NCBI RefSeq assembly: GCF_013155275.1
Contig: NZ_JABJXS010000003.1
Span: 558,001 to 622,000, forward strand
Reading direction: 5' to 3'
Source: Brenneria sp. hezel4-2-4
GTDB taxonomy: Bacteria > Pseudomonadota > Gammaproteobacteria > Enterobacterales > Enterobacteriaceae
DNA: 64,000 nt
Shown: positions 3,460 to 60,619 of the stretch, piece after piece
Position numbering within the stretch: position 1 is the first letter of the stretch
Layout: each line of letters begins with the position of its first letter
The notes under the pieces: generated by a model
What the model was told of the DNA's origin: nothing
Databases searched by the model: none
What the model saw: only the letters and a program-made list of their open reading frames with translations
Program-made: the position numbers and the translations under genes

Positions 3460-5125
<1,666 letters not shown>

Positions 5126-5126
5126 G

Positions 5127-6034: not shown

Positions 6035-6039
6035 ACCTC

Positions 6040-7428: not shown

Positions 7429-7462
7429 CCTCTGTTCCTCTTATCGCGAGCGATACGGTGCG

Positions 7463-8578: not shown

Positions 8579-8589
8579 ACGCGCTCCAG

Positions 8590-10988: not shown

Positions 10989-11004
10989 CAGACGGTCGCT
11001 CCTG

Positions 11005-11280: not shown

Positions 11281-11283
11281 GAT

Positions 11284-12946: not shown

Positions 12947-12983
12947 GCTGCGCTCCTGTGTCTGCTACGCTATTTTTCAGCTA

Positions 12984-13259: not shown

Positions 13260-13306
13260 GTTTTACTTCTCCTGTTTAGGGCTATCGCCCCGGTTGAATA
13301 AAATGA

Positions 13307-15471: not shown

Positions 15472-15505
15472 GACCAGCTCCTGATGGTGGTAAAAGTCGG
15501 GTTAA

Positions 15506-16033
15506 CTAATCGTCGCCTTTGAGTTTTTTGCGCTGCACATACAAATCAGCCGCTTCCCGCACGAAGGCGGCGCAGACCTTGGCTTTGTAGGTCTGTTCAA
15601 GATCGTCCGCGATGGCGTACAGCTCCGTTTTGCTGGAGCGGTAGGGGCGCAGGGCGTTATAAATATCCAGCACTTTGTCATCGGGAACGGCGGTGAGCTC
15701 GGCGGCGCGCTCAAAGTTCATCGCCAGCCGATCGCGCCCGGCGTCGCGGGCAATATCGGCCTGAATGCGCAGGATCTCCGGCGTAATGCGCAGATCCTGC
15801 GGGGTCACGCCGCCGTTAAGCACGTTAGCCAGCGTCAGCTCTTCCAGCGTTTTATTGGTTGCGGTTTTCACCCAGTCAGGGTGCTTGTTCGCCAGCGGAT
15901 AATCGGCGACCTTCGCCTTGATGCCTGTCGTGCTTGCGGCGGCCGTATCGGCGGGTGTCGTCGTCTGCCCTTGTAGGCTGTTCATCTTGCTGAGAACATC
16001 GCGAACCATGGATTCAATAGCTTCGGAATTCAT
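15506..16033 (-). CDS. pduE: PduE, diol dehydratase small subunit
   Basis: The 175-residue gamma subunit of adenosylcobalamin-dependent propanediol dehydratase. The N-terminus carries an amphipathic helix (EAIESMVRDVLSKM) separated from the folded part by a Thr/Ala/Gln-rich linker, consistent with shell association. The conserved segment after it (DYPLANKHPDWVKTATNKTL) is typical of the family. Confidence 0.95.
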   Translation of the reverse strand: MNSEAIESMVRDVLSKMNSLQGQTTTPADTAAASTTGIKAKVADYPLANKHPDWVKTATNKTLEELTLANVLNGGVTPQDLRITPEILRIQADIARDAGRDRLAMNFERAAELTAVPDDKVLDIYNALRPYRSSKTELYAIADDLEQTYKAKVCAAFVREAADLYVQRKKLKGDD

Positions 16034-16047
16034 TGTGTTTTCCTTTG

Positions 16048-16725
16048 TTAAATCGCCACCCGGAGTTCCTGCGGATTCTTGCCGGTCACCACGTATTTGG
16101 TTTCTTTAATGTGCAGAATGGCGGATTTCGCCTGGTATTTCGGCCGCGCCATCTGATCGTTCAGGGTCGGCACCGGCTGGGGCGATTCCCGCTTGGCGTA
16201 ACGCGCGGCGTTCTTGCCGATCTGCCGATAGGTTTCCAGCGTCAGCAACGGGGCCTGCGGGAACAGTTCCAGATTGGACAGGGGCGGTAATCCCTGTTGA
16301 TGGATCACGGTTGTCCCTTTGGATTGCACGCCGATGGAAATCCCGGAGCCGCTGAGTCGATTGCCTTCAACGGCGACAAACGCCACATCCGAGGATTTAA
16401 AGCAGCGGATCACCCGCGCCTTGAGCCCTTCTTCCTCAACCCCGGCGATAAGTTCGCGCAGAATGTTTTTATGCGGAATACCGACGATATTGACGGTTTG
16501 CGACAATCCGAATGCCGGCCCGACGGCAATAATCACTTCATCCTGGCTGGTGCCGGAACGCGCTTCGCCGACCTCGCTCAGAAAGCCGTCGCCCGCGGCC
16601 GATGTCACGGCGTCTGTTGCCGGCGCGCCCGGCTGTTTAAACGAGACGGTTTTGTTCTCGTCGTGCATTTCCTGTAGTACGCCTTCGATAATCTGGCGTA
16701 ATAGCTTTTCGTTAATCTCCACCAT
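16048..16725 (-). CDS. pduD: PduD, diol dehydratase medium subunit
   Basis: The 225-residue beta subunit of diol dehydratase. Residues 1-20 ([15 protein letters not shown]) are the amphipathic helix known in Salmonella PduD to direct the whole dehydratase complex into the microcompartment. A Ser/Ala-rich linker follows to about residue 50. The rest helps bind the cobalamin nucleotide tail. Gene order C-D-E and 11-base spacing from pduC are as in Salmonella. Confidence 0.95.
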
Positions 16726-16736
16726 GACGGAACCCC

Positions 16737-18401
16737 TTAGCCCAGCTCGTTGGGATCAAGCGCGTTAGGAATGTTTTTGATCTCTTCCCAACGCGCGCCT
16801 TCCAGCCGGTAACCGGTGGCCGGCCCGGCGTAATCATTGACGTCGTTCACCGCGGACAGCACCTGACTGTCGCCGACGATAATCGCCGACGTGTGCAGGT
16901 AGTCGCCGGCAATCTTGGCTTTCTGAATATTCAGCATGTCCTGGGCGACATCTTCAAAGCCGCCTTGCGCCAGCGCTTTCACCACGTCCAGCCCGGTGCG
17001 GTTTTTACTGATGATCTCCTGTGCGAACTTGATGTCTTCGACGATATTGCGCTCCGGCATGTCTTTGGAGCCGTGGGCATAGGTGGCGGCGGTGACTTCC
17101 TCATCGCTAATCGGCGGCAGCCCCATGCCGGCAAACACCGCCTGTAGGGCGCGCGCGGCCTTATTGCGGATGGCGACCACATCGGCTTCGCGAACCGGAC
17201 GCAAACCGCCGTCGACTTTGAGGTCGCGCTGCATGATGTTGTAGTCGTCGAAATCTTCCGCATCCTCATTGGAGCCAGCGAACATGTTGTCGTAGTTGGG
17301 GACGGCGGAATAACCGGAGGAGATAAAATCGGTGCCCGGTAAAAACTGCATCAGCAGACGCGCGGTGCGGCGCATGTCCGAGTGGGTAAAGGTCTGGTCG
17401 TTGCTGGAGGCGCACTCCAGATCCAGCGCCGAACAGATCAGGTTTTCCGCCAGAATGGCGCGAATGCCTGACGGCACCGCCGAGGGGATCCCCACGCAGC
17501 TGACCGAGCCGTTTTGCAGGCCCTGAACCCCGGCCGCTTTGGTGATGTAGATACAGCGGGCTTCGAGATACAGCATGGATTTGCCTTCGGCATACCCCAT
17601 CTGCACTTCGGAACCGGAGCCGGAGGTAAAGCGCATTTTCAGGCCGCGCGAGGCATAGGACGAGGCGAGAAAACCTTTCGACCAGGGCGTGTCGTCCCCA
17701 TCCGTGAACACCGGTTCGGTGCCGTAAACGGAGATGGTTTCCGCATAGCAGGTGTGGCCGAGCATGCCGAGTTTCAGTTCGGTGGCTTCCTCCAGCGAAC
17801 ACTGGGTCAACACGCCGGGGCGGCCCACCTGTGAACCCACCATCAGCGCCATGGCGTTGAACGGCGCATAGCGGGCGACGGCGACGGTGGTTTCCTGTTC
17901 GTCAAAACCCCGGAACGCCCCTTCGGCGGCGTCGGCGGCAATCTGCACCGGGTTGTCTTTGACATTGGTGACGTGAGCCTGCTGGGACGGCGTGCGACGG
18001 GCGCGCATTTTTTGCATGGCCATCATCATTTCCACCACGTTCATCTGCGACACCACCTCGACGATTTTCGCCGGGGTCATCGCCGTGGTCAGCGGTACGA
18101 TGGCGCTGCGCGGGACATTGGGATCGCACAGCATGTTCGCCAGCTTGACGGAGTCCATCCGCAGCACCTCTTCCGCGCGATCGAGATTGATGCCGTACCG
18201 GGCGATAAAGTGGTCGATCAGGTCGAAATCGGACTGGGGTTTGCCGTCCAGCTCGGTTACCACGCCGTTTTGAATCGTGATCGACGGTTTGGGATCGTTC
18301 GGACTCTCCATGGCAATGAAGCCTTCTTCGATCCACTCTTTGACAAAACCATCCTGATTGACCGGGCGTTTCGCCAATGCTTCAAATCTTTTCGATTTCA
18401 T
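16737..18401 (-). CDS. pduC: PduC, diol dehydratase large subunit
   Basis: The 554-residue catalytic alpha subunit, a TIM barrel that uses adenosylcobalamin to turn 1,2-propanediol into propionaldehyde by a radical mechanism. Length and the N-terminus ([20 protein letters not shown]) match the family exactly, and the substrate-binding regions are intact (for example the [11 protein letters not shown] and [18 protein letters not shown] segments). Glycerol dehydratase is the near relative, but the surrounding pdu genes decide for propanediol. No frameshift or gap seen. Confidence 0.97.
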
Positions 18402-18421
18402 GAAACTGCCTCGCTGTGGCG

Positions 18422-19222
18422 TCAGATATAGGAGGGGCGATCGTTTTTCGGTTCCGAACCCAGCGTCGCCAATACCGTTTTGCCGATTTCACGGGCGGAA
18501 ATCACGGCCTGACGCACGGCGCCGGAGTCGCCGGAAATGACCAGGATGGCTTCATTGCTGTAGCTGGTGCCGTGCGCCGGCGTGCTGTAAGCCACCACAT
18601 CCACATTGGCGGATTTCACCGCCGTATCCGCCATCAGCACGCCCACTGCCGCCGGCGCGCCGACGATCACCCCGCAGGAGCGGCCAATCGGCGCGCCAAA
18701 GGCTTTTTCCAGCGCATAGCTGGCGCGGGCGCTGTATTGCAGCTCGATGTGTCCGGCTTCGTTGGCGTAAACATCACCAAAGGTGCGATCCAGTTCCTTC
18801 AGCGCGACTTCGATGGCGCGTTTTACGTCGGAGACGTCGTTGCCGCCGAAAACAATCAGTGAGCCGTGCCCGGCGCCGCCTTTGGTATCGCGCGGCAGTT
18901 CGATGCTGACGACTTCGGTGTTGGTCGCTTTCACCGCTTCATCCGCCGCCATGATGTGCGGGCCTGCGCCGGTGCGCGCGCCCAGAATGCCGATAGAGCG
19001 GTAGCGTTTTTCAAGTTTCATGGCATCCAGCAGGGCGCTGTCGACGTTGGCGATCACCAGACCAACGGTGTCGCCAATCGCGGTGCCGACGAACTCGGTT
19101 AAACCACAGGTTTTTTCAGCCATAGCCGTATCTCGCGTTGTGTGAGTGGAGGATGGGGAAGACGCGCCGATTTTTGTCATCACCTGGGCCATGATGTGTT
19201 CGACCAGGTCATTGCTGCTCAT
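18422..19222 (-). CDS. pduB: PduB, trimeric tandem-BMC shell protein (with internal PduB' start)
   Basis: A 266-residue shell protein with two BMC domains; trimers form part of the facets. The first ~33 residues contain an amphipathic helix ([15 protein letters not shown]) and a Ser/Thr linker, and the PduB N-terminus is known to tether the enzyme core to the shell. A second in-frame ATG at 19123 (Met34, starting [11 protein letters not shown]) matches the start of the short form PduB' in Salmonella; only a weak GAGA site precedes it. The long-form start overlaps the pduA stop by four bases. Confidence 0.95.
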
Positions 19223-19503
19223 TGGCTAGTTTCCTTTGGTAAGAATTTTTCGACATCGGCGTGCGGGCGCGGGATCACATGCGTCGAGATCACCTCGCCG
19301 ACGGCGGCGGCGGACGACGACCCGGCGTCCACCGCGGCTTTTACCGCACCGACATCACCACGAACGATGACGGTGACCAGACCGGAGCCGATTTTCTCGT
19401 AGCCAAACAGCGTCACATTGGCGGATTTCACCATGGTGTCGGCGGCTTCGATGGCGGCGGTCAACCCTTTTGTTTCCACCATGCCTAATGCTTCTTGTTG
19501 CAT
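19219..19503 (-). CDS. pduA: PduA, BMC hexamer shell protein
   Basis: The first gene of the operon: a 94-residue BMC-domain protein that forms hexameric facets. The pore loop KIGSGLVTV is intact; its serine lines the channel that favours propanediol over propionaldehyde. The C-terminus is slightly longer than in PduJ. ATG at 19503; the leader continues into the divergent control region shared with pduF. Confidence 0.95.
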
Positions 19504-23640: not shown

Positions 23641-23644
23641 ACGA

Positions 23645-23812
23645 TCGATTCTGTATGTTGTCATGCTGCATGACAACTGGGAAGGGGGTGAAATTCCCCC
23701 GCAGCCCCCGCTGCTGTGATGCCGACGACCCCGTAAAAAGCCACTGATCGCTGCGATTGGGAAGGTTCGGGGAAGGATGACGCTAAGCCAGAAGACCGAC
23801 CTGATGATGACA
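23645..23812 (+). ncRNA. cobalamin riboswitch (B12 element)
   Basis: The leader of cbiA carries the conserved blocks of the B12 aptamer in order: gggggtgaaattccccc, then the core block gcagcccccgctgctgtga, gccactg, gggaagg followed by gatgacgc, and the B12 box aagccagaagaccgacct (about 23785-23802). Ends are approximate. Adenosylcobalamin binding should reduce expression of the downstream biosynthetic operon. A stem (agcggc/gccgct, about 23859-23873) lies between the aptamer and the terminator-like hairpin and may be part of the expression platform. Confidence 0.93.
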
Positions 23813-23897
23813 GATTCAACTCCTTCGGCGGGAAGCGGGTTGTCATCCGATGCGTGCAGCGGCAACGCCGCTCTTGCGCACCCTGTGACATTACCTG

Positions 23898-47711: not shown

Positions 47712-48203
47712 TTAATAGGTGGTACAGGTGAAAAGGTAAGAAATCGGGCCGCCAATCAGATAGGATTTGTCCTGAATGGGAATCACATCCAGTTGCAGCG
47801 TCCTATTATCGATGATTAATTCCGCGAGCAACTGATTGAATAGCGCATCCGGGGTGTTATCCGTTGGCGAGGCCACAATGTCGTTGATCTGGTATCGGAA
47901 GGTATCGCTATCGATTTTCCCTCCTTGTCCCAGATGGAGTGTACGGTTGAGAACCGTGATATTTTCATTATGAATAGCGCGGCCGTTCAGTAAAAAATAG
48001 CCTGAATTTTTGTCCTGAAAGCGCAGATCCTGTGCAAGATAAAACTCCAGATGATTATCATCCTGTGACAGGTTATAGCGGGTAAAGGCCGAACACTTAA
48101 ACGGCCAGATAGTGTGCTGACTGGAAAAAAGCACGGCAAATAGCACAATCAGCAGCGACAGAATACCGATGGCGATGACCGTATGGCGGCTGAATTTTTT
48201 CAA
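47712..48203 (-). CDS. FidL/YqeJ-like inner membrane protein
   Basis: A 163-residue protein with a basic start, one membrane helix (about 9-28, IAIGILSLLIVLFAVLFS) and a periplasmic domain of about 130 residues with two cysteines. The reading frame opens with TTG at 48203, preceded by GGAG. Placement directly behind a ToxR/CadC-type regulator resembles marT-fidL and yqeI-yqeJ pairs, where the small protein may modulate the regulator as ToxS does for ToxR; that role is inference. More A+T-rich than the flanking metabolic genes. Confidence 0.75.
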   Translation of the reverse strand: MKKFSRHTVIAIGILSLLIVLFAVLFSSQHTIWPFKCSAFTRYNLSQDDNHLEFYLAQDLRFQDKNSGYFLLNGRAIHNENITVLNRTLHLGQGGKIDSDTFRYQINDIVASPTDNTPDALFNQLLAELIIDNRTLQLDVIPIQDKSYLIGGPISYLFTCTTY

Positions 48204-48205
48204 CG

Positions 48206-49033
48206 TTATCTCCAGTCGTAATAATAAAAATTATCGCAGGAGATAATGTCATTTTTTATCCCCAGTTGACAAAATGACAACATGGTGCGGCCATAACTTT
48301 GTGTGGAATAGGACGTATAATTATCGAAAATGATTTTTCGGTTTTTGCCGCACTGTAATTTATTCTCATCAAGAATTTTTACGATCTGTTTATCGATCGC
48401 TTCCCGATCTTTGCTATCCATGTTTTTGAGATAGGTGACGTTGCAATCTCCCTGCAACACATCATTCACCGGCTCGATCTCCCGCTCTTCCAGCGGATCC
48501 CGGAACTGGAGAAGCAGCAATCCCACTAGCAGCAGACTAAAGCCGACGCACAAAATCAGAAACCAGGTTTTTCTTTTGTTGTTGCTGCCATTTTGTGCCG
48601 GATTCGCCGGTGTTTCGGGGGGCTGAACTGCGGACGGCGCCTGTTCGACGGGTGGCGTTTCCTCCACGGGCAGCGGTTGCTCCAGGGATAAAGGCGGCGC
48701 AGCGTCATCGCGATGGATGGGGATATCGGTGTTCAGACGAAAACCAATTTTGGGAATGGTGACGATCAGATTTTCACAGCCATAGCCGGCCAGAGCGCGG
48801 CGCAGGATGCTGATATATTGGTTGAGATTGCTATTGGTGCCGCGCAGGCCATATTTGTCCCATACCTCGGTCAGCAGATATTCCCGGGTCAGGGTTTCTC
48901 CGCCGGAGAGCAGCAACTGTTCGAGCAAACGGCAGGCGGGGATGCTAAGTTTAATAAAATCATCGTCTTGATGGTTTACCAGGGTACAATCATCGGGATT
49001 GAATCTGATCTCCTCCGCTATGATATAAATCAT
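48206..49033 (-). CDS. membrane-bound winged-helix regulator (ToxR/CadC/MarT-like)
   Basis: A 275-residue one-component regulator. Residues 1-105 are an OmpR-type winged helix (LSIPACRLLEQLLL, then GTNSNLNQYISILRRAL and PKIGFRL). A Pro/Glu-rich linker (about 110-150) leads to a membrane helix (about 155-178) and a periplasmic sensor of about 95 residues with four cysteines. DNA binding is cytoplasmic, sensing periplasmic. The ATG at 49033 has AGGT seven bases upstream. Forms a two-gene unit with the FidL-like gene, two bases apart. Targets unknown. Confidence 0.82.
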   Translation of the reverse strand: MIYIIAEEIRFNPDDCTLVNHQDDDFIKLSIPACRLLEQLLLSGGETLTREYLLTEVWDKYGLRGTNSNLNQYISILRRALAGYGCENLIVTIPKIGFRLNTDIPIHRDDAAPPLSLEQPLPVEETPPVEQAPSAVQPPETPANPAQNGSNNKRKTWFLILCVGFSLLLVGLLLLQFRDPLEEREIEPVNDVLQGDCNVTYLKNMDSKDREAIDKQIVKILDENKLQCGKNRKIIFDNYTSYSTQSYGRTMLSFCQLGIKNDIISCDNFYYYDWR

Positions 49034-49154: not shown

Positions 49155-50195
49155 TCAGGCGCCGGGGGCTTTTGCCGCCAGCAGAAAAGCCAGTTTTCTG
49201 CCGCCGCGGATTTGCTCCAGCGTTAATTTGACCGACATGGTCAGCGGCACGGCCAGCAACACGCCGGTCATTCCCAGCAACCCTTCCCATACCAGCAACG
49301 ATATGATCACGGTGCTGGTGGACAAATTGAGCTTACGCCCGATCAGGTAGGGATCCAGCAAGCATCCCACGATCAGGTTAATCAACAGAAACGCCAGCAG
49401 CACCAATGCGCCGGTTGCAAAGCCGTTGAACAGGAATGCCTGGATCAAGGGCGGGACGGCGGCGACCACGGAGCCCACCACCGGAATGAAATTCAGCAGA
49501 AACGCCAGCACGCCCCAGATGAAAGAAAATTTCACGTTCAGCAGGAACAGGGCGGCCCAGACCGCCAGACCGCTCAGCAGGCTAATCAGCGTTTTTAACA
49601 CCAGATAGTGCGTCACATAGCCTATTCCCTGGCGAATGGCGTCAATGCCGGCGGAAGAGTGCCGCAACAGACGATGGCTTTTGGCGGCCAGCGCAGGCGC
49701 CTCTATCAGCATAAATATCACCATCAGGAATACCACCAGCACGGCTGACAGGATCCCGGATATCCGGCCGACGGTCCGGGTCGCCATTCTCAGGAGCTGG
49801 CTGGGATCGATTAAGGCCATCACCTCATCTGGCGTCAACGACAGCCCCGCCCGCGTAAGCGGTTCCAACACGGTAATGAGATGAGCGGCCAGCAATCCGC
49901 GCATTTGGGCGATCATTTGCGTCAGTTCGGGCAGCGCCCCCATGATTTTTACCAGCGAAAGCAGCAGAGCGATCAACAGACTCACGCTTAGCAGCGCAAT
50001 GGCGGCAAGGCGCGGCAGCCCCAGACGCGACATCATGACGATCAGTGGTTCCAGGACAATCGCCAGAAACAAAGCCAGCAACAGCAGCACGATAATCGGT
50101 GCGGCGAGGCGAATGCCGATCATGACTATCACCAGGCAAGCGAGCAGCAACATGCCTCTTAGTACGGTATCACGCGAGCGATCAATGTTGTTCAT
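49155..50195 (-). CDS. AI-2E family transporter (permease)
   Basis: A 346-residue membrane protein with about eight helices. The conserved late segments (NFIPVVGSVVAAVPP, and GCLLDPYLIGRKLNLS) identify the AI-2E/PerM family, whose members export diverse small molecules or ions; autoinducer transport is shown for only one. The ATG at 50195 has AAGGA upstream and overlaps the RND pump gene by 14 bases, so it is translated in the same unit. The frame upstream of 50195 runs inside the pump gene and is not used. Confidence 0.85.
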   Translation of the reverse strand: MNNIDRSRDTVLRGMLLLACLVIVMIGIRLAAPIIVLLLLALFLAIVLEPLIVMMSRLGLPRLAAIALLSVSLLIALLLSLVKIMGALPELTQMIAQMRGLLAAHLITVLEPLTRAGLSLTPDEVMALIDPSQLLRMATRTVGRISGILSAVLVVFLMVIFMLIEAPALAAKSHRLLRHSSAGIDAIRQGIGYVTHYLVLKTLISLLSGLAVWAALFLLNVKFSFIWGVLAFLLNFIPVVGSVVAAVPPLIQAFLFNGFATGALVLLAFLLINLIVGCLLDPYLIGRKLNLSTSTVIISLLVWEGLLGMTGVLLAVPLTMSVKLTLEQIRGGRKLAFLLAAKAPGA

Positions 50196-53100
50196 GCCGA
50201 TGTCCTTCTGATGGTGTGTGCTCCCCGGAAGCCGCCGGTTGGTGAAAGCGTTCCCGCAGCGTCTGAATATGCAGATATAACGCCGGAATAAACAGTATGC
50301 CGACGGTCGTGGCGGCAAGCATGCCCGCGAACAGCGTGACGCCGATGACCTGCCGGCTCAGCGCACTGGCGCCGCCCGCCAACATGAGCGGCACCACTCC
50401 AATAATAAATGAAACGGCGGTCATGATAACGGCGCGGAAGCGTTGCCTGGCTCCCTGAAGCGCGGCCTGTTGCAGACTGTATCCCTGGCTCCGCAGGCTG
50501 AGGGAGAATTCAACGATCAGTATGGCATTTTTGGCGGCCAAACCAATGAGCAGCATCAGGCCGATTTGCGCATAAATATCGTTGGACAGACCGGTCAGTT
50601 TGAGTCCGGTTACGGCGCCCGCCAACGCAAAAACCACTGAGAGCAGTACCGCCGCCGGGATACTCCAGCTTTCATATTGCGCCACCAGAAACAGATAGGC
50701 GAACACCAGCGCCGCCAGGACGAGATAGACAATTTGTCCGCCGGTCTGCTGTTCCTGTAGGGATAATCCACTCCAGCTGTAGCCATACCCTGACGGTAAA
50801 TGTTCCGACAGCACCTGTTCCATCACCTGCATTGCCTGTCCCGAGCGTACCCCTTCCGCCCCGGAGCCGGCGATCGCCACCGACGGAAATAGATTGTATT
50901 GGGTCAGAAAGGGCGAACCGAGCGACGGCTGTAGCGACACCAACTGGCTGAGATTCACCAGCGCGCCGCTGTCGCTGCGCACCGACATCCGGTGGATTTG
51001 TTCGCTGCGTTGCCGGAAGCTCATCTCATTTTGCACCTGTACCCTGAACAAACGGTTATGGTGGGTAAAATCGCCGGCCAGCGTGCCGCCAAACGCGGTC
51101 TGAAGCGTGGCGAACAGACGGTCTACCGGCACCTGCAACAACGCCGCGCGTTCACGATCGATGGTCAAGGTATATTCCGGCGCGCTGGCGCTGAACGTGG
51201 TAAACACGCGCTGTAATTCGGGCTGCTGATTGGCCGCCATAATGATGGCGTGGCTGATGCGGGCCAGCTCCTGCGGCGACTGTCCTTCAAAAGCCTGAAG
51301 TTGCAGATCAAAGCCGGCGGCATTTCCCAGACCGCTGATGGGGGGAGGGGCGACCACCATCAACATCGCCGACGGCACGGCCATAAGCTGTTGCTGGATC
51401 TCCGGCAATAGCCGATCGACGCTCGGGCGTTCTTCCCAGGGTTTCAGCATGATAATCGCAAACCCGGTATTGGCGGCGTTGCCGCCGCCCATCAGGCTGA
51501 AACCGGCGACCTTGATCACGTCCTCAACCGCCGGATTGGTTGAAAGATGCTGATACATCTGATCCAGTACGCTCTGGGTGCGTTCCAACGAGGCGCCATC
51601 CGGTAGTTGCACATTCACAAACAGATAGCCCTGATCTTCCTGCGGCAAAAAGGTGGTGGGAAGCTGACGGTAACATAGCCAAGTGATCGCCACGGCGCCG
51701 GCAATAACCACCAGGGTAACCGTGCCATAGCGGTTGATGGCATTGCTCATTTTCACGTAACCTTCCCGGGTCGCGCCAAGCAGCCGGTTGAATCCGGCAA
51801 AAAATCCTGCCGGTGGCGACGGGCGAGGACGTAAAAGCAGCGCCGACAGCGCGGGGGTCAAGGTCAGGGCGTTGGCGCTGGAAAGCACCATGGCGGTGGA
51901 CAGCGTAACGGCAAACTGGCGGTACAGCTCGCCGGTGATGCCGGGCAGCATCGCGACCGGCACAAACACCGCCAGCAGCACCAGCGTGGTGGTAATAACC
52001 GGCCCGGCGATCTGGCCGACCGCCTCCCTGGTGGCCTGAAGCGCGCTTTTCCCTACGGTTTCGCTCATTAGCCGTTCGACGTTTTCCACCACCACGATGG
52101 CGTCGTCGACCACAATATTCAGCGCCAGAATCATGGCGAACAGGCTGAGCATATTCAGGCTATAGCCGGTCAAATACAGCACGGCCACCGTACCCAGCAG
52201 CGAGACCGGAATGGTCAGCGCCACAATCAGAGTGGCCCGCAGGCTCTGCATAAACAGATAGACTACGGCCAGTACGATCAGCAGCGTCAGCGCCAGCGAA
52301 AACAGGATCTCCTGCAATGAGGCGCGAACCGAGTCGCTGGCGTCGAATTTCACCTGATACTGGATGTCGTCGGGAAAATCGACGGCCAGACGCGCCATCT
52401 CCTGATTAATCGCCCTCACCAGACTCAGCGCATTAGCCCCCGGCGCCGGATAAATCATCAGCAGTACCCCGGGGGTATTGTTTACAGCCGCATTAATCTG
52501 ATAATTTTCCGCGCCCAGTTCGATTTTAGCGATGTCTCCCAGCCGCACCATCCCGCCTTGAGCATTGCTGCGCAGGATAATCCGGGAGAAGGCTTCCGGG
52601 GTGGCGAGCCGGCCTTGTCCGCTCAGGGTCAGCGTTTGCTGTTGTGATACGGGCGCCGGGGCGGCGCCTAGCTGGCCCGCCGCCGCCTGTACGTTTTGCT
52701 GTCTCAGCGCGGCGATCAATTCGTCGCTACTGATATGCAACGCCTCCATCCGTTGCGGATCGAGCCAGATGCGCATGCTGTAATCCCGTGCGCCCAACAT
52801 GTCTACTTCGCCAATACCGTCAATGCGGGCCAATACGTCAATCAGGCGCTGACGGGCAAAATGACTCAGGTAGAGATTATCAAAGGTATTCGCGGGTGAA
52901 ACGATGCTGATCCCCATGAGAATATTGGTGGCGCGTTTACGGACAGTCACGCCCTGACTGTTCACTTCCGGCGGTAGCTGGGCGCTGATCTGAGAGAGTC
53001 GGTTTTGCACTTCAACCATCGCCATGTCCGGGTCGGTTCCGCTGGCAAAAGTCATATTCAACTGGTAGCGCCCATTGTTGCTGCTGTTCGACTCCATATA

Positions 53101-53328
53101 GAGCATATGGCTGACGCCGTTGAGCTGTCGCTCAATCGGGCCGGCTACCGCCTGCGAGACGTCGCGGGCGCTGGCGCCCGGATAGAAGGCGCTGACGCCG
53201 ATCACCGGCGGCGTGATATCCGGAAATTGTTCCATGGCAATAAGCCGTAGCGCCAGCAATCCGCATAGCGCCGTGATCAGCGCGATAACCATCGCCAACT
53301 TGGGTCTTCTGATGAAAAAATGTAACAC
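50182..53328 (-). CDS. RND efflux pump, AcrB/MexB type (HAE1)
   Basis: A 1048-residue inner membrane drug/proton antiporter. The proton-relay residues are present: the VDDAIVVVENVER motif in helix 4 and the helix 10 lysine in GLAAKNAILIVEF. Twelve helices and two large periplasmic loops fit the family. Start is GTG 53328, with AAGGAGG five bases upstream; the upstream extension to 53376 lies inside the adaptor gene. No outer membrane channel gene is nearby, so it would need TolC from elsewhere. Confidence 0.92.
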   Translation of the reverse strand: MLHFFIRRPKLAMVIALITALCGLLALRLIAMEQFPDITPPVIGVSAFYPGASARDVSQAVAGPIERQLNGVSHMLYMESNSSNNGRYQLNMTFASGTDPDMAMVEVQNRLSQISAQLPPEVNSQGVTVRKRATNILMGISIVSPANTFDNLYLSHFARQRLIDVLARIDGIGEVDMLGARDYSMRIWLDPQRMEALHISSDELIAALRQQNVQAAAGQLGAAPAPVSQQQTLTLSGQGRLATPEAFSRIILRSNAQGGMVRLGDIAKIELGAENYQINAAVNNTPGVLLMIYPAPGANALSLVRAINQEMARLAVDFPDDIQYQVKFDASDSVRASLQEILFSLALTLLIVLAVVYLFMQSLRATLIVALTIPVSLLGTVAVLYLTGYSLNMLSLFAMILALNIVVDDAIVVVENVERLMSETVGKSALQATREAVGQIAGPVITTTLVLLAVFVPVAMLPGITGELYRQFAVTLSTAMVLSSANALTLTPALSALLLRPRPSPPAGFFAGFNRLLGATREGYVKMSNAINRYGTVTLVVIAGAVAITWLCYRQLPTTFLPQEDQGYLFVNVQLPDGASLERTQSVLDQMYQHLSTNPAVEDVIKVAGFSLMGGGNAANTGFAIIMLKPWEERPSVDRLLPEIQQQLMAVPSAMLMVVAPPPISGLGNAAGFDLQLQAFEGQSPQELARISHAIIMAANQQPELQRVFTTFSASAPEYTLTIDRERAALLQVPVDRLFATLQTAFGGTLAGDFTHHNRLFRVQVQNEMSFRQRSEQIHRMSVRSDSGALVNLSQLVSLQPSLGSPFLTQYNLFPSVAIAGSGAEGVRSGQAMQVMEQVLSEHLPSGYGYSWSGLSLQEQQTGGQIVYLVLAALVFAYLFLVAQYESWSIPAAVLLSVVFALAGAVTGLKLTGLSNDIYAQIGLMLLIGLAAKNAILIVEFSLSLRSQGYSLQQAALQGARQRFRAVIMTAVSFIIGVVPLMLAGGASALSRQVIGVTLFAGMLAATTVGILFIPALYLHIQTLRERFHQPAASGEHTPSEGHRHEQH

Positions 53329-53338
53329 GATTCCCTCC

Positions 53339-54229
53339 TTAGCGGCTGGCGGCCGCCGGTGTATGCAACGTGACATTGACCACGCCGCCCGGCAGCAGCT
53401 TTTCCTGAGGATTGGGGACTTGCAGGCGCAGCGCGACGGTGCCGGTCAGCGGATCGATGTGGTTATCAAGGGCGTCAAAGATACCGCTATAGGGATAAGG
53501 TGAACCGTCGCTCAGTCGTAACCGAAGCGACAGACGGTCAAGCCGCGGCGCGCCGTCGGCATCGTTTTTCGACAGATTACGCAGATAGTCCGGTTCGTTG
53601 ACCGCGATAACTACCCGCAGCGGATCAAGCTGCGTTACCGTCGCCAGCGTGCCGGTCGCCGGCCCGACCAACGTTCCCTGGTGATAGGGACTATGGCTGA
53701 TGCGTCCGCTGAAAGGCGCGCTAATACGGGTATAGCCGAGCGAAATCTGCTGCGTAGTCAGTTCGGCCTGCGCCTGCGCCAGCGTCGCCTGGGCGATATC
53801 CCAATTGGCTTTGGCCGTATCCTTATCCGCCTGGCTGACTGCCCGACTGACCGTAAGCCGACCGAGGCGTTCAAAATGCAGCCGGGCGTGGTTGGCGCCG
53901 GCTCTGGCGCTGGCGACGGCGGCTTTGGCCCGGGCAACTGCGGCCTGCTGCTGCGCCGGATCAATCTCAAACAGCAGTTGACCGGCCTCAACCCGGTCGC
54001 CGTCGTGAAAATGACGCCGGGCGATAATGCCTTCCACCCGCGAGACGATGTCAGCGGAACGCAGGGATTCAATGCGCCCCAGATAAGTTTGCACCGCTTC
54101 CTGATGCGCGTTGGCGACGCTGACCGTAGCCGCCATGGGGCCGTCCGTTGCCAATGCCGGCCCGGATAGCAGTAAACTCAGCAGCAACAGGCTTACCCGC
54201 GAGATCCTGTTATTAAACATATCTTTCAT
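53339..54229 (-). CDS. short RND periplasmic adaptor (AcrA-like, lacks the C-terminal domain)
   Basis: A 296-residue membrane fusion protein. A signal peptide ends at ALA (about residue 28) and no lipobox cysteine is present, so it is not lipidated. Half-lipoyl motifs (EGIIARRHFHDGDRVEAGQ), alpha-hairpin (about 90-150) and beta-barrel follow. The protein stops just after LLPGGVVNVTL, where AcrA-class adaptors continue for roughly 75-100 residues as the membrane-proximal domain. The stop is followed at once by the pump's ribosome-binding site, with no remnant of the missing domain. ATG 54229 chosen over TTG 54238. Confidence 0.85.
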   Translation of the reverse strand: MKDMFNNRISRVSLLLLSLLLSGPALATDGPMAATVSVANAHQEAVQTYLGRIESLRSADIVSRVEGIIARRHFHDGDRVEAGQLLFEIDPAQQQAAVARAKAAVASARAGANHARLHFERLGRLTVSRAVSQADKDTAKANWDIAQATLAQAQAELTTQQISLGYTRISAPFSGRISHSPYHQGTLVGPATGTLATVTQLDPLRVVIAVNEPDYLRNLSKNDADGAPRLDRLSLRLRLSDGSPYPYSGIFDALDNHIDPLTGTVALRLQVPNPQEKLLPGGVVNVTLHTPAAASR

Positions 54230-54293
54230 AATGTGCAACCTGGTCGAAATAGGAGGCCGGCGGCGAACCAGAGCGTCAGCCCCGGTCTGCGGC

Positions 54294-55142
54294 TCAGGCG
54301 ATACAGTGCGACAGCGCCGTTGTGCTCAAACTGTGACGTTCCGCCGCGCGCTGCAATACAGCGATGTCGGCCGGGCCGGGATTGGGGTGCAGTTCGCCAT
54401 AGCGATAAGGTTTGCCCAATAGCGCATATTTATTCACGCCGAAACGGTGGTAAGGCAACAAATCAATGCCGGTAAAGCAGCGGCTGTGGCGGCTGAGCGT
54501 ACGGATTAGCGCCATCATTTGCTCCGCCTGTTCCGGCCCGTCATTGACCTGCGGGATCGCCGGAATTCGGATACGCACCGGAATATCCCCGGCCAGCAGT
54601 CGTTGCAGATTACGCAAAATAGGCCGATTGCCGACGCCGGTGTAATGCAGATGCATGCTGTTATTCGCCAGCTTCAGGTCATACATGATTAATTGACTGT
54701 ATTCACAGGCTTGCTCCAGCGCTGACCACGGAGCAAAACCGGAGGTTTCCACCGCGGTATGAATACCTTCTTCCCTGAGCGTGGCCAGCAGCGCGCGGGC
54801 GAACGCCGGCTGAAGCGCCATTTCCCCGCCGCTGAGCGTGACCCCGCCGCCGGAGACCCGATAGTGCGCTTCGTCGGCTATGACTTTTTGGCGAACCTGT
54901 TCGACGGTGTAAATCTCGCCGACCCGGCGCGGCGCCGAAGCGCCGGCAAACCGCATCTCGCTATGGGGTGAAATCCCCTCCGGGTTGGCGCACCAGGCGC
55001 ATTGCATCGGGCAGCCTTGTAAAAACACTACCGTGCGGATGCCCGGCCCGTCGTGCAATGAAAAGCGCTGGATATTGAATACCCGACCGCGGCAGTACCG
55101 CAGATCAGAAGTGGCGCAGCAGGGTGCGGCTGATGATTTCAT
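54294..55142 (-). CDS. glycyl radical enzyme activase (radical SAM)
   Basis: A 282-residue activase that installs the glycyl radical on its partner using SAM. The cluster motif is GCPMQCAWC (CxxxCxxC), preceded by FSLHDGPGIRT, and followed by the SAM-binding TLSGGEM. The eight-cysteine ferredoxin-like insert usual in activases of non-PFL GREs is absent; about 35 residues without cysteine lie in its place, making it similar in size to short activases. ATG 55142 has GGGAGG upstream and overlaps the GRE gene end by 38 bases. An N-terminal pair of cysteines (PCC, residues 8-9) is unusual. Confidence 0.9.
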   Translation of the reverse strand: MKSSAAPCCATSDLRYCRGRVFNIQRFSLHDGPGIRTVVFLQGCPMQCAWCANPEGISPHSEMRFAGASAPRRVGEIYTVEQVRQKVIADEAHYRVSGGGVTLSGGEMALQPAFARALLATLREEGIHTAVETSGFAPWSALEQACEYSQLIMYDLKLANNSMHLHYTGVGNRPILRNLQRLLAGDIPVRIRIPAIPQVNDGPEQAEQMMALIRTLSRHSRCFTGIDLLPYHRFGVNKYALLGKPYRYGELHPNPGPADIAVLQRAAERHSLSTTALSHCIA

Positions 55143-57495
55143 CCTGTACCTCCCGGCTAAGTTCGACAAAAAATGCGCTATAACCGGCGACCCGGATCAT
55201 CAGGTTGCGGTAGGACTCCGGATCTTGCTGCGCTTTCAATAGGGTGTCGTTATCCACATAGCTGAACTGCATCTGCGCATTGCCCAGCAGGCTGGCGCTA
55301 CGCAGCAGATGGATGATCCCCTGTTCGCCTTCCGGCGTATCCAGCATGCCGTACAGCAGCTTGAAGTTATGCACCATGCCGATTTCCATCTCTTCGACGT
55401 TAATACGGCTGATGGAATTGATAATGGCCGTCGGCCCGGCGACATCCGACTGCTGGGACGGGCTGATGCCGTCGGCCAGCGGTTGCCCCGCCAGACGGCC
55501 GCTGGGCAGCGCGCCGGTGATCAGTCCGAACGGGGTGTTGTTGGAAATGGACAGCGTACCGTGAGTGAACGGGCCGTACAGCATACGGTACTGACGGTGC
55601 TCATATTCCATAAAGCGGATCAGATCGCGGGCGATCAGGTCGACTTCCTCGATATCGTTGCCGAATTTGGCGACATTTAGGCACTGTTCCCGCAGTTCCG
55701 CGTGGTCGCAGAAGTTATGACGCAGCGCCAGCGCCATTTCCGCCGCCGTGACTTTGCCCTGACGATAGACCAGTTCGCGCATCACCATCATCGAGTTGGC
55801 GAAGTCCGCCATACCGGTCCAGATCAGCCCCGGGCCGTTATTGATTTCGGCGCCGCCGTGCATCACATCGCGCCCGGAGGCGACGCAGCCCTCGATCAGG
55901 CAGGAGATCAGCGGTTTGGGCGCATAGCTTTTGTGCAGTTTCTGTACGATCAGCGTGGCTCTGGCCGCCTGACGAATAATATGGCTTAACTGGGTTTTAA
56001 CCGCCTGTTCGAAAGCGGCATAGTCCGTCAGAGTGCTGATGTCGCCGGTGGCGGGGCCAGCCTGTTTACCATTGGCGCGCTTGCCGTTGTTTATCGCCAG
56101 CTCAATGGCGGCGGTAAACGTTGTGTAGCCGACGGAGGTCCACTGATAGATTTTGCCTGATTTTTGCGGCTCCACGCAGCCCATCAGGCAGTAATCGCGG
56201 GCGTCTTCGTAGTCAAAACCTTTGCGCAGCATCATACGGATATGCGCGTCATCAAAGTGACAGGCGGGAAAGCCCATGCCGGCGCGGATCACCTCCACCA
56301 CTTTGCGCATGAAATTCTGCGGCGTACGGTTATGGATCCGCACCGCCAGCCCCGGCTGATACAACTTCAGCTTGCGCGAACAGTCCATAAACAGCAGAGA
56401 GAGCGGATTGGTGGCATCGCCGCCTTCGCGTTTCTGGCCGCCGACCACCAGATTAATAAAAGGCTGATAGCCGGCAAAGTACATGGCGGTATCGGCGCTG
56501 CATACCCACATGCATTCCGACATTTTGATCATCCAGCAGCAGATCAGCTCTTCTGCCTGCGCTTCCGTCAGCGTGCCGTTCGACAGATCGGCTTCCAGAT
56601 AAGGCCATAGATACTGATCGGCCCGCCCGAGAGAGATGCCGGTTTGGTTCTCCTCCAGAATAAACAGGGACTGAACGAACCAAACGGATTGCAGCGCTTC
56701 ATGGAAGTTGCGCGGCGGATGTTCCGGCACGCGCAGGCAAATTTCCGCCAGCCGCTCCAGCTCCGCCTTGCGCGACAGCTCAGTCTGCCGTTCGGCAAGC
56801 TGTTGTGCATAGGCGGCGTAGCGGTGCGCATATTCAATCACGCCGTCGCAGGTGTTGATCACCGCCTGATGGAAATGTTGTTTTTCCATCTCTTCATCAC
56901 TGACGCCAGAGAGGGCGAGCAGCGACTGGCGCGCCTGTTCCCGAATGCCGGCCATGCCCTGGGTCAGCAGGATATTGTCATACCCCGGACAGGTATCGCC
57001 GCCGCCATTCTGGGTTTTAATGGTTAAATCGCAAATGTTTTCATCATGGCTCCAGGCCCACAACCCGGCCTGACGCAGTTGGGTTTCCGCCATCTCATCC
57101 AGTGAACGCCCTTGCCAGAACGGGAAAATGCGTTCACGCAGCTCCTGCTTGTCGGCTTCGCTGATAAAGTAAGGATCCTGAGCGCGCTCGGTCATGGTGT
57201 CCAGTTCGTCCGCCACCCAGCGCCAGGCGATTTCCGGCGAAATTTCGCCGCCGCGCGCCCGGCCCGCGGGATGGCTGATAATCAACTCGCCTTCTTCTAT
57301 CACCAACGGCGCGATTTGGCAGGCGCGGCGAAAAGCCAGCGCACGCAGCAAAATGGCGGGCATGCCGGGGTGGCGTTGATAAATTTCCGTTACCGCCCGG
57401 GCGCGTGAAATGGAAATAAAGGGCTTGGCCTGCAAATAGTGGTTACGCAGCCTGTTGATGCGTCCGGATAATTCATTTTTGTGGTTGTTCATCAT
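55105..57495 (-). CDS. glycyl radical enzyme (PFL-like; dehydratase/C-N lyase type)
   Basis: A 796-residue glycyl radical enzyme. The radical Gly771 is in RVAGYSAFF near the C-terminus; the thiyl Cys440 and base Glu442 form GCVEP, the pattern of GREs that eliminate water, amine or similar groups rather than of pyruvate formate-lyase (two adjacent Cys). Spacing of Asp167, Phe346, Thr453, Tyr457 and Phe628 from Cys440 equals that of pocket residues I recall for choline TMA-lyase CutC, but the counterpart of CutC Tyr208 is Ile159. Substrate unproven. The start (57495 or 57492) overlaps the upstream SMR gene; the activase overlaps its end. Oxygen-sensitive, so an anaerobic function. Confidence 0.9.
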   Translation of the reverse strand: MMNNHKNELSGRINRLRNHYLQAKPFISISRARAVTEIYQRHPGMPAILLRALAFRRACQIAPLVIEEGELIISHPAGRARGGEISPEIAWRWVADELDTMTERAQDPYFISEADKQELRERIFPFWQGRSLDEMAETQLRQAGLWAWSHDENICDLTIKTQNGGGDTCPGYDNILLTQGMAGIREQARQSLLALSGVSDEEMEKQHFHQAVINTCDGVIEYAHRYAAYAQQLAERQTELSRKAELERLAEICLRVPEHPPRNFHEALQSVWFVQSLFILEENQTGISLGRADQYLWPYLEADLSNGTLTEAQAEELICCWMIKMSECMWVCSADTAMYFAGYQPFINLVVGGQKREGGDATNPLSLLFMDCSRKLKLYQPGLAVRIHNRTPQNFMRKVVEVIRAGMGFPACHFDDAHIRMMLRKGFDYEDARDYCLMGCVEPQKSGKIYQWTSVGYTTFTAAIELAINNGKRANGKQAGPATGDISTLTDYAAFEQAVKTQLSHIIRQAARATLIVQKLHKSYAPKPLISCLIEGCVASGRDVMHGGAEINNGPGLIWTGMADFANSMMVMRELVYRQGKVTAAEMALALRHNFCDHAELREQCLNVAKFGNDIEEVDLIARDLIRFMEYEHRQYRMLYGPFTHGTLSISNNTPFGLITGALPSGRLAGQPLADGISPSQQSDVAGPTAIINSISRINVEEMEIGMVHNFKLLYGMLDTPEGEQGIIHLLRSASLLGNAQMQFSYVDNDTLLKAQQDPESYRNLMIRVAGYSAFFVELSREVQDEIISRTLLRHF

Positions 57496-57821
57496 TTGAA
57501 TAATCCCATGGTTATACAGCCGGTGACGATAAAACACAGACCGATTACGCCGAATCTATCCGGTTTCTGCTGATAAAAAATAAATCCTGAACAGGCAATC
57601 AAAATGATGCCCAGCCCGCACCACAAGGCATAAGCCAGTCCGGGAGAAATAAGCGACATTGCCTGAGCCAGTGCGTAGAAACAGACCAAATAGCACCCGA
57701 TCACCAGCACTGACGGAATAAATTTACGAAAATTCTGGGTTTTTAATAGCAGGCTGGTGCCGGTGACTTCCAGCAATACCGCGATAAATAACCACAACGT
57801 CGCCATAAGCAAAATTGTCAT
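57492..57821 (-). CDS. SMR-family transporter, second of a pair
   Basis: A 109-residue protein with four membrane helices. The essential Glu18 in helix 1 and the AYALWCGLG motif in helix 3 mark the small multidrug resistance family. Overlaps its partner gene by four bases and the GRE gene at its 3' end. Paired SMR genes usually make heterodimers of opposite topology, as MdtIJ and EbrAB; this could be one. Likely exports a cation linked to the GRE, either substrate analogue or amine product, which is inference. Confidence 0.88.
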   Translation of the reverse strand: MTILLMATLWLFIAVLLEVTGTSLLLKTQNFRKFIPSVLVIGCYLVCFYALAQAMSLISPGLAYALWCGLGIILIACSGFIFYQQKPDRFGVIGLCFIVTGCITMGLFK

Positions 57822-58171
57822 ATTCTTTCCGCCTGTGTTTCGGTATTTGACAGTAAATTAATAATCAGCACGCCGATAATAATTAACCACATGCCAATCA
57901 GTGCCCCGCTCTGTAATGTTTCATTGAATAAAATAGTGCCGAGGATATTGGTCGCCAGAATGCCGATACCGGACCAAATCGCGTAGGCAAAACCCATTGG
58001 AATTCGATTCAACGCCAGCGTCAGGGTGTAATAAGAAACGGCATAACCGAGGGTTGCAAATACCGATGGGATCGCCCGACTAATACCGTCGGATAAAATC
58101 AGCATAGTGGTTGCAAATATTTCAGTAATTACCGCGATAAAAAGCCAGAAATAACATTTACCACGACTCAT
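57818..58171 (-). CDS. SMR-family transporter, first of a pair
   Basis: A 117-residue EmrE-like protein: Glu17 in helix 1, and AYAIWSGIGI with Trp66 in helix 3, the form seen in quaternary-amine (Qac) exporters rather than guanidinium (Gdx) ones. Four hydrophobic helices. ATG 58171 has AGGA seven bases upstream. It is the first gene of the putative seven-gene unit running to 49155. No guanidine riboswitch is seen upstream. Confidence 0.88.
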   Translation of the reverse strand: MSRGKCYFWLFIAVITEIFATTMLILSDGISRAIPSVFATLGYAVSYYTLTLALNRIPMGFAYAIWSGIGILATNILGTILFNETLQSGALIGMWLIIIGVLIINLLSNTETQAERI

Positions 58172-58195
58172 TGATCTGTCCTGATGTTAATAAAC

Positions 58196-58216
58196 GTGCG
58201 CTCTTGACGAGCGCAC
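58196..58216 (-). terminator. stem-loop after yfaZ
   Basis: gtgcgctc (58196-58203) pairs perfectly with gagcgcac (58209-58216) around a 5-base loop. Read on the minus strand it is followed by gtttatt. It lies 31 bases after the yfaZ stop and 25 bases before the SMR start, so it probably separates yfaZ from the downstream unit, at least partly. Confidence 0.6.
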
Positions 58217-58246
58217 AACAAAGGTTGGGTAGGGATAGAAATTTAT

Positions 58247-58819
58247 TTAGAAACTCACTTGGCCGCCAACGTAAGGGCCTTCCACCAGACGTTCATTAGG
58301 GCGCTGGTTTTTGCCGTCCATACCGATATAGCGATAACCGGCTTTCAGCGTCAGCGGTTGCACCGGCTTCCAGCTCAGACCGGAATCCACATCCAGATAA
58401 TTTTTTGTGCTGTTGCTCAACTGACGGGGAGCGGTATAAGCGCTGGCATACAGCCCGACCGAGTCGCTAACCGGTAATTGCACGCCGGCGCCGACCGGGA
58501 AAACCACGCCTTCGCTGCTGCCGTTGGAACCTTTGATATAATTAGCCTGAATGCCGAGATTGACCCGCGCCGGACCGGCGGGAAGATTGATCCCGGTTTC
58601 GGCCCCGGCCACTTCACGGCCGTTTTCATTATTTTTAACCCAGCCGCCGTTGATATACAGGCCGGAAGAGTGTTGTCCCATTCCGATATTCACGTCGGTA
58701 AAGTTTTTACCGACATCAACGCCGCCTTCAATTGCCTGCGCCGCCGGGATACTCATCATTGCCGCCAGTGAGAAGCCGATTACCGTCGTGATGTTTTTTA
58801 CTGATGTACGCATTTTCAT
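58247..58819 (-). CDS. yfaZ: YfaZ-family outer membrane protein
   Basis: A 190-residue protein with a signal peptide ending in AQA (about residue 29). The mature part is rich in alternating hydrophobic/polar beta-strand segments and ends in Phe (GGQVSF), which suits an outer membrane beta-barrel. It resembles the YfaZ family, whose function is unknown. ATG 58819 and 58813 are both possible. A hairpin after the gene suggests it is its own transcription unit. Confidence 0.8.
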   Translation of the reverse strand: MKMRTSVKNITTVIGFSLAAMMSIPAAQAIEGGVDVGKNFTDVNIGMGQHSSGLYINGGWVKNNENGREVAGAETGINLPAGPARVNLGIQANYIKGSNGSSEGVVFPVGAGVQLPVSDSVGLYASAYTAPRQLSNSTKNYLDVDSGLSWKPVQPLTLKAGYRYIGMDGKNQRPNERLVEGPYVGGQVSF

Positions 58820-59631: not shown

Positions 59632-59641
59632 GGGGATGACA

Positions 59642-60619
59642 ATGAGATATCTGTTTTTACGGCCGGTGTTAGCCGCAACGATGTTAATCAGTTTGAGCTT
59701 TATGGCGAGCGCCGCCGATCTTACCGTGGCATACCAAACGATTCCGGATCCTTCGCAGGTGGCTCAGGCCGATGGCGTTTATGAAAAAGCGACCGGTTTG
59801 AAAATAGACTGGCGAAAATTTGACGCCGGTGCGGAAGTGATCGCCGCGGTGGCCTCCGGCGATGTGCAGATAGCCTATTTGGGATCCAGTCCCTATGCCG
59901 CCGCGGTGAGTCAGAAAGTCCCGGTTGAAACATTGTTGATCGCCTCCAAACTGGGGGCCAGCGAAGCGCTGGTGGTGCGCAACGGGGCCGGTATCGAAAA
60001 GCCCGAAGATTTGATCGGCAAGAAGGTCGCGACGCCTTTTGTTTCCACCAGCCATTACAGTTTGCTGGCCGCGCTTAAGCACTGGAATATCGATGCGAAA
60101 AAAGTACAGATCCTGAATCTGAATCCGCCGGCTATCAGCGCTGCCTGGCAACGTGGCGATATTGATGCCGCCTATACCTGGGATCCGGCGCTTGGCGTGG
60201 CGAAATCGAGCGGCGATGTTTTGATCTCTTCCGGGGATTTGGCCAATCTCGGCGCGCCGACGTTTGATGTCTGGCTGGTACGCAAGGATTTTGCCGAGAA
60301 GCATCCGCAGGCGGCAAAAGCGTTTGCCAACGTCACCCAGGATGCCTATACCCGCTACCGCCAGGATCCGCAAGCCTGGCTGGCGGATAAAAGCAACATC
60401 GATAAGCTGGTGAAAATCACCGGCGCCAAAGCGGAAGATATCCCCGGTTTGTTGCAGGGAAATACCTATCCTTTGGCGGAGGAGCAACGGGAGTCCCTTG
60501 CCGAGCCAACCGTGAAGGCGATTAGCGATACGGCGGCGTTTCTCAAGGAACAGGGACGCATTGATGCGGTTTTACCCGATTACTCGCCCTATGTTACCGC
60601 CAGGTTTGTTCCCGAATGA
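59642..60619 (+). CDS. tauA: TauA, taurine ABC transporter binding protein
   Basis: A 325-residue periplasmic protein with a signal peptide ending in ASA (about residue 24). The mature start DLTVAYQTIPDPSQVAQADG is typical of TauA, as is GSSPYAAAVSQKVPVE in the sulfonate-binding region. AGGGG at 59631-59635 fits ATG 59642 (spacing six) better than ATG 59636. First gene of a three-gene sulfonate importer, normally induced on sulfate starvation. Confidence 0.92.
   Translation: MRYLFLRPVLAATMLISLSFMASAADLTVAYQTIPDPSQVAQADGVYEKATGLKIDWRKFDAGAEVIAAVASGDVQIAYLGSSPYAAAVSQKVPVETLLIASKLGASEALVVRNGAGIEKPEDLIGKKVATPFVSTSHYSLLAALKHWNIDAKKVQILNLNPPAISAAWQRGDIDAAYTWDPALGVAKSSGDVLISSGDLANLGAPTFDVWLVRKDFAEKHPQAAKAFANVTQDAYTRYRQDPQAWLADKSNIDKLVKITGAKAEDIPGLLQGNTYPLAEEQRESLAEPTVKAISDTAAFLKEQGRIDAVLPDYSPYVTARFVPE

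Follow-up and report, generated by a model that had tools for sequence, protein, structure and literature searches.

The question raised by this locus is whether a glycyl radical enzyme gene and the transporter genes around it form a single system. In a stretch of 64,000 nucleotides from Brenneria sp. hezel4-2-4 (contig NZ_JABJXS010000003.1, positions 558,001 to 622,000; hereafter the window), seven open reading frames lie in a row on the minus strand and encode two small multidrug resistance proteins (SMR1 and SMR2), a glycyl radical enzyme (GRE), a radical S-adenosylmethionine (SAM) activase, a periplasmic adaptor, an RND pump and an AI-2E family permease. We confirmed the family assignment of each, as well as the co-directional order and tight borders recorded in the initial annotation, whose overlaps and gaps hold with the likeliest start codons. 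That annotation had taken all seven genes for a single system equipped with two routes of export, a proposal at odds with the distribution of the genes in related genomes: gene order indicates that the row is a junction of two modules, SMR1-SMR2-GRE-activase and adaptor-RND-AI-2E. The first of these probably encodes a CutC-type lyase that works without a shell, has an SMR partner and takes choline or a close analogue as its substrate.

A recurring four-gene cassette

The first module begins with SMR1 (57818..58171, 117 aa, PF00893 88.3 bits), an EmrE/Qac-type protein whose gene overlaps by 4 bases that of its probable partner SMR2 (57492..57821, 109 aa, PF00893 80.7 bits). These two overlapping genes, the arrangement expected of paired-type SMR proteins, are the sole PF00893 matches in the window genome. 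SMR2 in turn overlaps the GRE gene (55105..57495) by 4 bases, given a GRE start at ATG 57495 and a product of 796 aa; the listed start, GTG 57537, appears too early because relatives such as those in loci L006 and L007 likewise begin with a 4-base overlap. The GRE gene overlaps by 38 bases the activase gene (54294..55142), which encodes 282 aa from ATG 55142 and matches PF04055.

Relatives were collected with peptide patterns, which pick up close relatives only, in a scan that took a single genome from each species. The scan returned 16 loci, 12 of which (L006-L012 and L017-L021, from 11 genomes) are of the window type, L013-L016 being of other types. With the window included and two Leclercia contigs (L019 and L020) counted as one, the clade comprises 12 loci. 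The activase gene lies directly downstream of the GRE gene in all 12, overlapping or abutting it, and the SMR pair lies directly upstream in 11, the exception being L010. The view that the SMR genes belong with the GRE is thus borne out. Furthermore, the cassette recurs at several chromosomal sites: the djlA-rluA interval holds the four cassette genes in L007, L008 and L021, two of them in L010, and other small genes in E. coli K-12. Because the cassette recurs in other genomes, its gene packing can be argued not to result from chance, an argument that is valid only for the first four genes. No description of the cassette was identified in the passages and listings covered by a literature search.

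To place the SMR proteins, a tree of 36 rows was built, from which weak or partial SMR matches (5 of 27) were left out, along with the SMR genes of L007, L018, L020 and L008, the last being taken from genome G756 instead. In this tree, which carries long-branch warnings, SMR2 fell together with the second SMR protein of the canonical cut clusters (96/90 support), and SMR1 took no resolved position.

The glycyl radical enzyme and its activase

The window GRE scored 1155 bits with TIGR04394, the choline trimethylamine (TMA)-lyase model (cut-off 1050), and at most 632 bits with other GRE models, and its nearest solved structures are CutC enzymes. The suspected affiliation with the choline-lyase family is therefore upheld, and eight other full-length clade GREs also pass the CutC cut-off. 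Among 392 sampled genomes, 35 were positive with TIGR04394; 33 of these scored 1505-1567, as canonical CutC does, and scores of about 1130-1155 were found only in the window genome and in G579.

We then compared the 13 choline-surrounding residues named in passages of PMC12451663, whose numbering fits the offsets of our alignment. This alignment contained 55 rows, exact duplicates and matches covering fewer than about 740 residues being left out; row L065 stands for the window both here and in the GRE tree, and L060 and L011 denote one genomic site. Eleven of the 13 pocket residues of the window GRE are as in canonical CutC, and Tyr208-His209 is replaced by Ile-Lys. The pocket reads YHDTFFMCETYLI in 39 rows, YHDCFFMCETFLQ in 4, YHDTFFMCETWLM in 1 and IKDTFFMCETYLI in 10, and the remaining row is a distant second GRE of the window genome. 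The 10 Ile-Lys rows are all full-length clade members. The damaged copies L018 (broken) and L020 (split), checked apart from the alignment, also carry Ile-Lys, which is thus found in 12/12 clade loci versus Tyr-His in 44/44 other CutC-like sequences. Since CutC is expected to have the choline-contacting Tyr208 and its neighbour His209, we call the GRE CutC-type rather than CutC. The equivalents of Cys489, Glu491, Asp216, Thr502, Tyr506 and the radical Gly821 are conserved in the window GRE.

In a GRE tree built from 31 of the 55 rows, the clade forms one side of a branch with a support of 100 and sits on a long stem. Twenty positions, both pocket sites included, are invariant within, yet different between, the 10 clade rows and 40 canonical rows. 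The Ile-Lys type was not found outside enterobacteria in the peptide-pattern scan, which reaches close relatives only, and in a 369-genome sample of the class it was represented by the GRE of the window genome alone. For the loci compared, which were some of the set, dN/dS was 0.05-0.14 for the GRE and 0.10-0.36 for the activase where dS was computable, dS being often near saturation; these ratios indicate that both genes are under purifying selection.

Two other kinds of CutC-like sequence came up in the same searches. A separate clade with a Thr334Cys/Tyr506Phe/Ile700Gln pocket (L014:12614-15118, L015:10016-12427, L016:893-3277 and L064:4826-7282) comes from genomes of the Endozoicomonas type, Acetoanaerobium and G023 and is often the second copy there. 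L013 holds CutC and CutD in a metagenome-assembled genome (MAG) labelled Thermoplasmata archaeon, with about 67% identity to the E. coli CutC core, and is possibly a misbinned contig or a transfer.

The window activase has the CxxxCxxC motif of the SAM cluster and lacks the ferredoxin-like two-cluster domain. Its best profile is the GRE-activase subfamily TIGR02494, and its score with TIGR04395 (CutD), 229 bits, is below the cut-off of 360. In five canonical CutDs, 86-90 residues with 8 Cys separate the SAM motif from SGGGVT, whereas the window activase has 41 residues without any Cys in this interval and neither of the two CX2CX2CX3C motifs of CutD. Within the clade, both cluster motifs are intact in L017, L018 and L019 (85 residues, 8 Cys), the motif is lost in L007, L008, L009, L010 and L021 (76-77 residues, 4-5 Cys), and only 35-41 residues with 0-1 Cys are left in the window, L006, L012 and the short L011 copy. 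These spacings indicate that the clade activases form a natural series in which the two-cluster domain is intact, decayed or deleted. Passages of PMC10239695 describe the function of the ferredoxin-like domain as largely unknown, report that IbsAE is active without the clusters and cite a study in which the 4-Hpad activase without clusters gave a short-lived radical; the function of the auxiliary clusters is also called unknown in a passage of PMC11528403. A series of this kind, found beside GREs under purifying selection, makes the role of the auxiliary clusters directly testable.

Proposed reaction and substrate

We propose that, under anoxia, the activase uses SAM and a single 4Fe-4S cluster to generate the glycyl radical of the GRE, and that the GRE then cleaves a C-N bond of choline or of a close choline-like amino alcohol in the cytosol, releasing trimethylamine (or a related amine) and acetaldehyde. 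SMR1 and SMR2, probably as a heterodimer, would carry the cationic substrate or the amine product over the inner membrane, and the aldehyde would be handled by general enzymes instead of a shell. In this genome, a CadC-like/FidL-like membrane pair would probably control the operon, and the adaptor-RND-AI-2E genes would be a second module joined here by happenstance.

This reading, in which a shell-free CutC-type lyase acts on choline or a close analogue, draws on the CutC cut-off, the 11 pocket residues and the catalytic residues, the recurring SMR pair and activase, the grouping of SMR2 and the purifying selection described above. It draws equally on known cut clusters, which also have two SMR genes and a winged-helix/FidL pair. 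The E. coli cluster runs in the order TetR, winged helix, FidL-like, three shell genes, aldehyde dehydrogenase, EutN-type, alcohol dehydrogenase, cutC, cutD, shell, phosphotransacylase, hypothetical and two SMR-type transporters, and, judged by similarity, P. mirabilis has the same cluster. According to passages of PMC5026066, both emrE homologues of Proteus mirabilis are among the genes most changed with choline, and a passage of PMC12977544 states that the cluster regulators and putative transporters of E. coli 536 matter for TMA formation.

In the window, a candidate regulator of the cassette, a CadC/ToxR-like membrane winged-helix protein (48206-49033, PF00486), and its FidL-like membrane partner (47712-48203, PF15941 53.6 bits) follow the AI-2E gene on the same minus strand after about 120 bases; neither gene figured in the initial annotation. 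A search of the window genome with the winged-helix protein of the E. coli cut cluster matched only the candidate regulator gene (E 5.5e-29), and the two proteins share about 28% identity over their whole length, C-terminal part included. The similarity between the FidL-like proteins is weak (27%).

Consistent with a shell-free enzyme, we confirmed that the unit contains neither shell genes nor genes for handling aldehydes. No PF00936 shell match was found in 8 of 12 clade genomes; matches are present in the window genome, G754, G756 and G760, and in the latter two genomes four of the matches lie within a few kb of a second, canonical CutC. Six of seven canonical genomes or records tested for shell genes were positive. 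The seventh, G126, has a short cutC, cutD, SMR pair cluster and no shell-gene match, and therefore lends further support to the proposal. So do betT, betI, betB and betA, all scoring over their cut-offs and located 2.2 kb upstream of the Leclercia MAG cassette (L020:1027-6940). A GMC oxidoreductase and an aldehyde dehydrogenase near L006 were considered as BetA and BetB, and scored below the respective cut-offs.

Several observations weigh against this proposal. Tyr208, which contacts choline, is Ile clade-wide, and choline itself may therefore not be the substrate. Canonical CutC is additionally present in 2 of the 11 clade genomes (G756 and G760), and this coexistence with the clade GRE argues against the two being simply redundant. 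Only three of the 12 loci (the window, L006 and L018) have the winged-helix/FidL pair close to the cassette, and the bet genes, found at one of the 12, were rejected as a general neighbour. The shell genes of the window genome belong to a pdu cluster 30-45 kb from the cassette. L010 is without the SMR pair, the L018 GRE is split over three frames and the L011 activase is short (186 aa). Finally, the search for an FNR-like site (at most one mismatch) upstream of the cassette found none, with the single exception of L012, and hence no consistent site.

A serious alternative, and a real possibility although we do not favour it, is that the clade acts on something other than choline; Ile-Lys would then mark a changed specificity, for a different tertiary or quaternary amino alcohol or for a zwitterion bound through the new lysine. 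It overlaps with the reading that we favour where the substrate is a close analogue of choline. The invariant change at the substrate-contacting pair, the long stem branch and the coexistence with canonical CutC in G756 and G760 argue for it, as does the loss of about 83-fold for Y208F/Y506F in published work cited in a passage of PMC12451663. Conversely, the two carboxylates are retained together with every other pocket residue on the list, bet genes lie beside one cassette, and a passage of the same paper ascribes little direct electrostatic effect to Tyr208. In the furthest-reaching form of this idea, the clade might be a distinct glycyl radical lyase in which the Ile-Lys change adapts a CutC pocket to a new substrate (another cationic or zwitterionic amino alcohol) and which is encoded, together with a paired SMR exporter of its own, in a four-gene, shell-free cassette; its activase would have shed its auxiliary clusters, which would then prove dispensable in nature.

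The choice between these substrates matters for annotation. The TIGR04394 cut-off would name these GREs choline TMA-lyases, and Pantoea, Erwinia and Mixta, the plant-associated and environmental genera with the cassette, would then be counted as trimethylamine producers. Given the changed pocket, trimethylamine production in these genera needs testing before the name is applied.

The adjoining pump module and known systems

The adaptor gene (53339..54229, 296 aa, TIGR01730 192 bits with a cut-off of 94.9) starts at ATG 54229, 64 bases after the activase gene. It is followed after 10 bases by the gene of an AcrB-type RND pump (50182..53328, 1048 aa from GTG 53328, PF00873 1020 bits), which overlaps by 14 bases that of the AI-2E permease (49155..50195, 346 aa, ATG 50195, PF01594 168 bits). 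The adaptor and RND genes directly follow the activase in one of the 12 clade loci, the window itself, and an AI-2E gene is found there in two, the window and L006. The latter, the closest locus (83%), reads SMR1-SMR2-GRE-activase-AI-2E-winged-helix-FidL. The window AI-2E protein is 57% identical to that of L006 versus 37-43% to those of free-standing modules. The three-gene module may thus have become joined to the cassette before the two lineages parted, with later loss of the adaptor and RND genes in L006, or AI-2E may have come first.

Pumps of the same kind usually stand elsewhere. The window RND subfamily (E < 1e-260) was found in 6 of 11 other clade genomes and in 17 of 246 family genomes, the window genome included; it is commoner with the clade GRE (6/11 vs 16/245, Fisher 7e-5), in a comparison confounded by shared ancestry. 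At 15 pump loci (L090-L104) the adaptor always adjoins the RND gene, and adaptor, RND and AI-2E are adjacent in the window order at seven (L090-L092, L096, L098, L103 and L104). A GRE was absent from all 13 stretches of about 15-16 kb around pumps of this subfamily, and the pump and GRE genes are separated by 18 kb in Enterobacter cloacae (G761). An origin of the window RND ancestral to the genus was rejected, the best matches in 8 other genus genomes being about 40% identical.

At two more loci an RND gene is found less than 10 kb from the cassette. In L019, one that is 59% identical to the window RND lies 3.8 kb from the activase on the opposite strand. In a Pantoea MAG (L009:2575-8929, minus strand), TetR-like, SMR, adaptor, RND and AI-2E genes stand in a row just upstream of the cassette and on the opposite strand to it, the RND being of a distant type, 22% identical to that of the window. 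Two such loci are near chance expectation (rough Poisson P 0.05-0.18 by assumed pump density, 11 loci fetched).

It is therefore unlikely that the seven genes are one system in which the SMR and RND proteins are export routes for the same compound. The close packing is compatible with it, and a sequence search of the gap between activase and adaptor found no clear terminator or promoter. The frequency of the RND subfamily in clade genomes, the AI-2E gene after the L006 activase and the RND genes near the L009 and L019 cassettes point the same way, the L009 pump set raising the odds slightly. However, the arrangement is confined to one locus, the free-standing pumps lack a GRE, the RND genes near other cassettes lie on the opposite strand, that of L009 being of a distant type, and the number of such loci is close to chance, and the genome comparison is confounded by ancestry. 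The GRE-activase pair is thus routinely found without the pump, whereas the SMR pair stays linked to it. The remaining alternative, a decaying and non-functional cassette of which the lost ferredoxin domain would be a sign, is very unlikely, since, despite the damaged relatives L018, L011 and L010 and an altered end of SMR1 in L007, the window has full open frames, catalytic residues and low dN/dS, and L006 and L012 have the deletion in common with it yet keep open GRE and activase frames.

On the other side of the cassette, a yfaZ-type gene (58247-58819), likewise absent from the initial annotation, lies upstream of SMR1. A 9-pair hairpin followed by TTTATT (58195..58217, minus strand) stands between the two and may end upstream transcription, although terminator-like sites in the region are near chance level (16 found vs 13.2 in shuffled sequence). 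YfaZ was rejected as an operon member: the hairpin separates it from SMR1, and it adjoins the cassette only in the window and L006.

The window also contains a pdu microcompartment cluster (about 5100-19500) with a B12-dependent propanediol/glycerol dehydratase large subunit, PduG, an acylating aldehyde dehydrogenase and 8 PF00936 matches, and a cobalamin riboswitch at 23641-23818. A taurine-type ABC binding protein is encoded at 59636-60619. About 6 kb past the window end lies a second GRE gene of the genome (L002, G000:C23:627948-630326). Its product reached 1528 bits with the model for (2S)-3-sulfopropanediol dehydratase, which has a cut-off of 1000, and the activase encoded next to it, downstream, has a complete ferredoxin domain.

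The two modules can be set against four known systems. The pump genes are the same, in the same order, as those of free-standing AcrAB-type RND and AI-2E modules, which are without a GRE, whereas the window copy follows a GRE cassette. Like a PflA-type activase, the window activase has the SAM-cluster motif only and no two-cluster domain; unlike it, it scores best with TIGR02494 and adjoins a CutC-type GRE, and the window genome has its own PflA-like activase copy (L003).

The type II cut, or GRM2, clusters of E. coli, Klebsiella and Proteus, which encode CutC and CutD, resemble the window cluster in the CutC score and the 11 shared pocket residues of the GRE, and in the presence, within the cluster or next to it, of paired SMR genes and of a winged-helix gene with a FidL-like partner. 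In contrast, the window cluster is without shell, aldehyde dehydrogenase, alcohol dehydrogenase and phosphotransacylase genes, the PF00936 match nearest to it being at about 19.5 kb of the window, in the pdu region. Its GRE has Ile-Lys for Tyr-His, is about 57% identical to the core enzyme and, with a frame of 796-810 aa, lacks the N-terminal extension of about 350 residues that a passage of PMC6325248 gives for type II cut CutC. Furthermore, its SMR genes come first and overlap, and its activase is without the ferredoxin domain.

The closest parallel in gene content is provided by short canonical cutC-cutD-SMR-SMR clusters (L061, L062 and L063, from G126, G730 and G671, respectively), which consist of the same four families, with no other cut genes found nearby; the shell search covered G126, without a match. 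They differ from the window in their Tyr-His pocket, their 86-87% identity to the E. coli CutC core, the downstream position of the SMR genes and an activase with both cluster motifs, except for one changed Cys of the first motif in L061. Together, the minimal cassette and these short canonical clusters point to the SMR pair as the shell-independent core transport partner of CutC-type enzymes.

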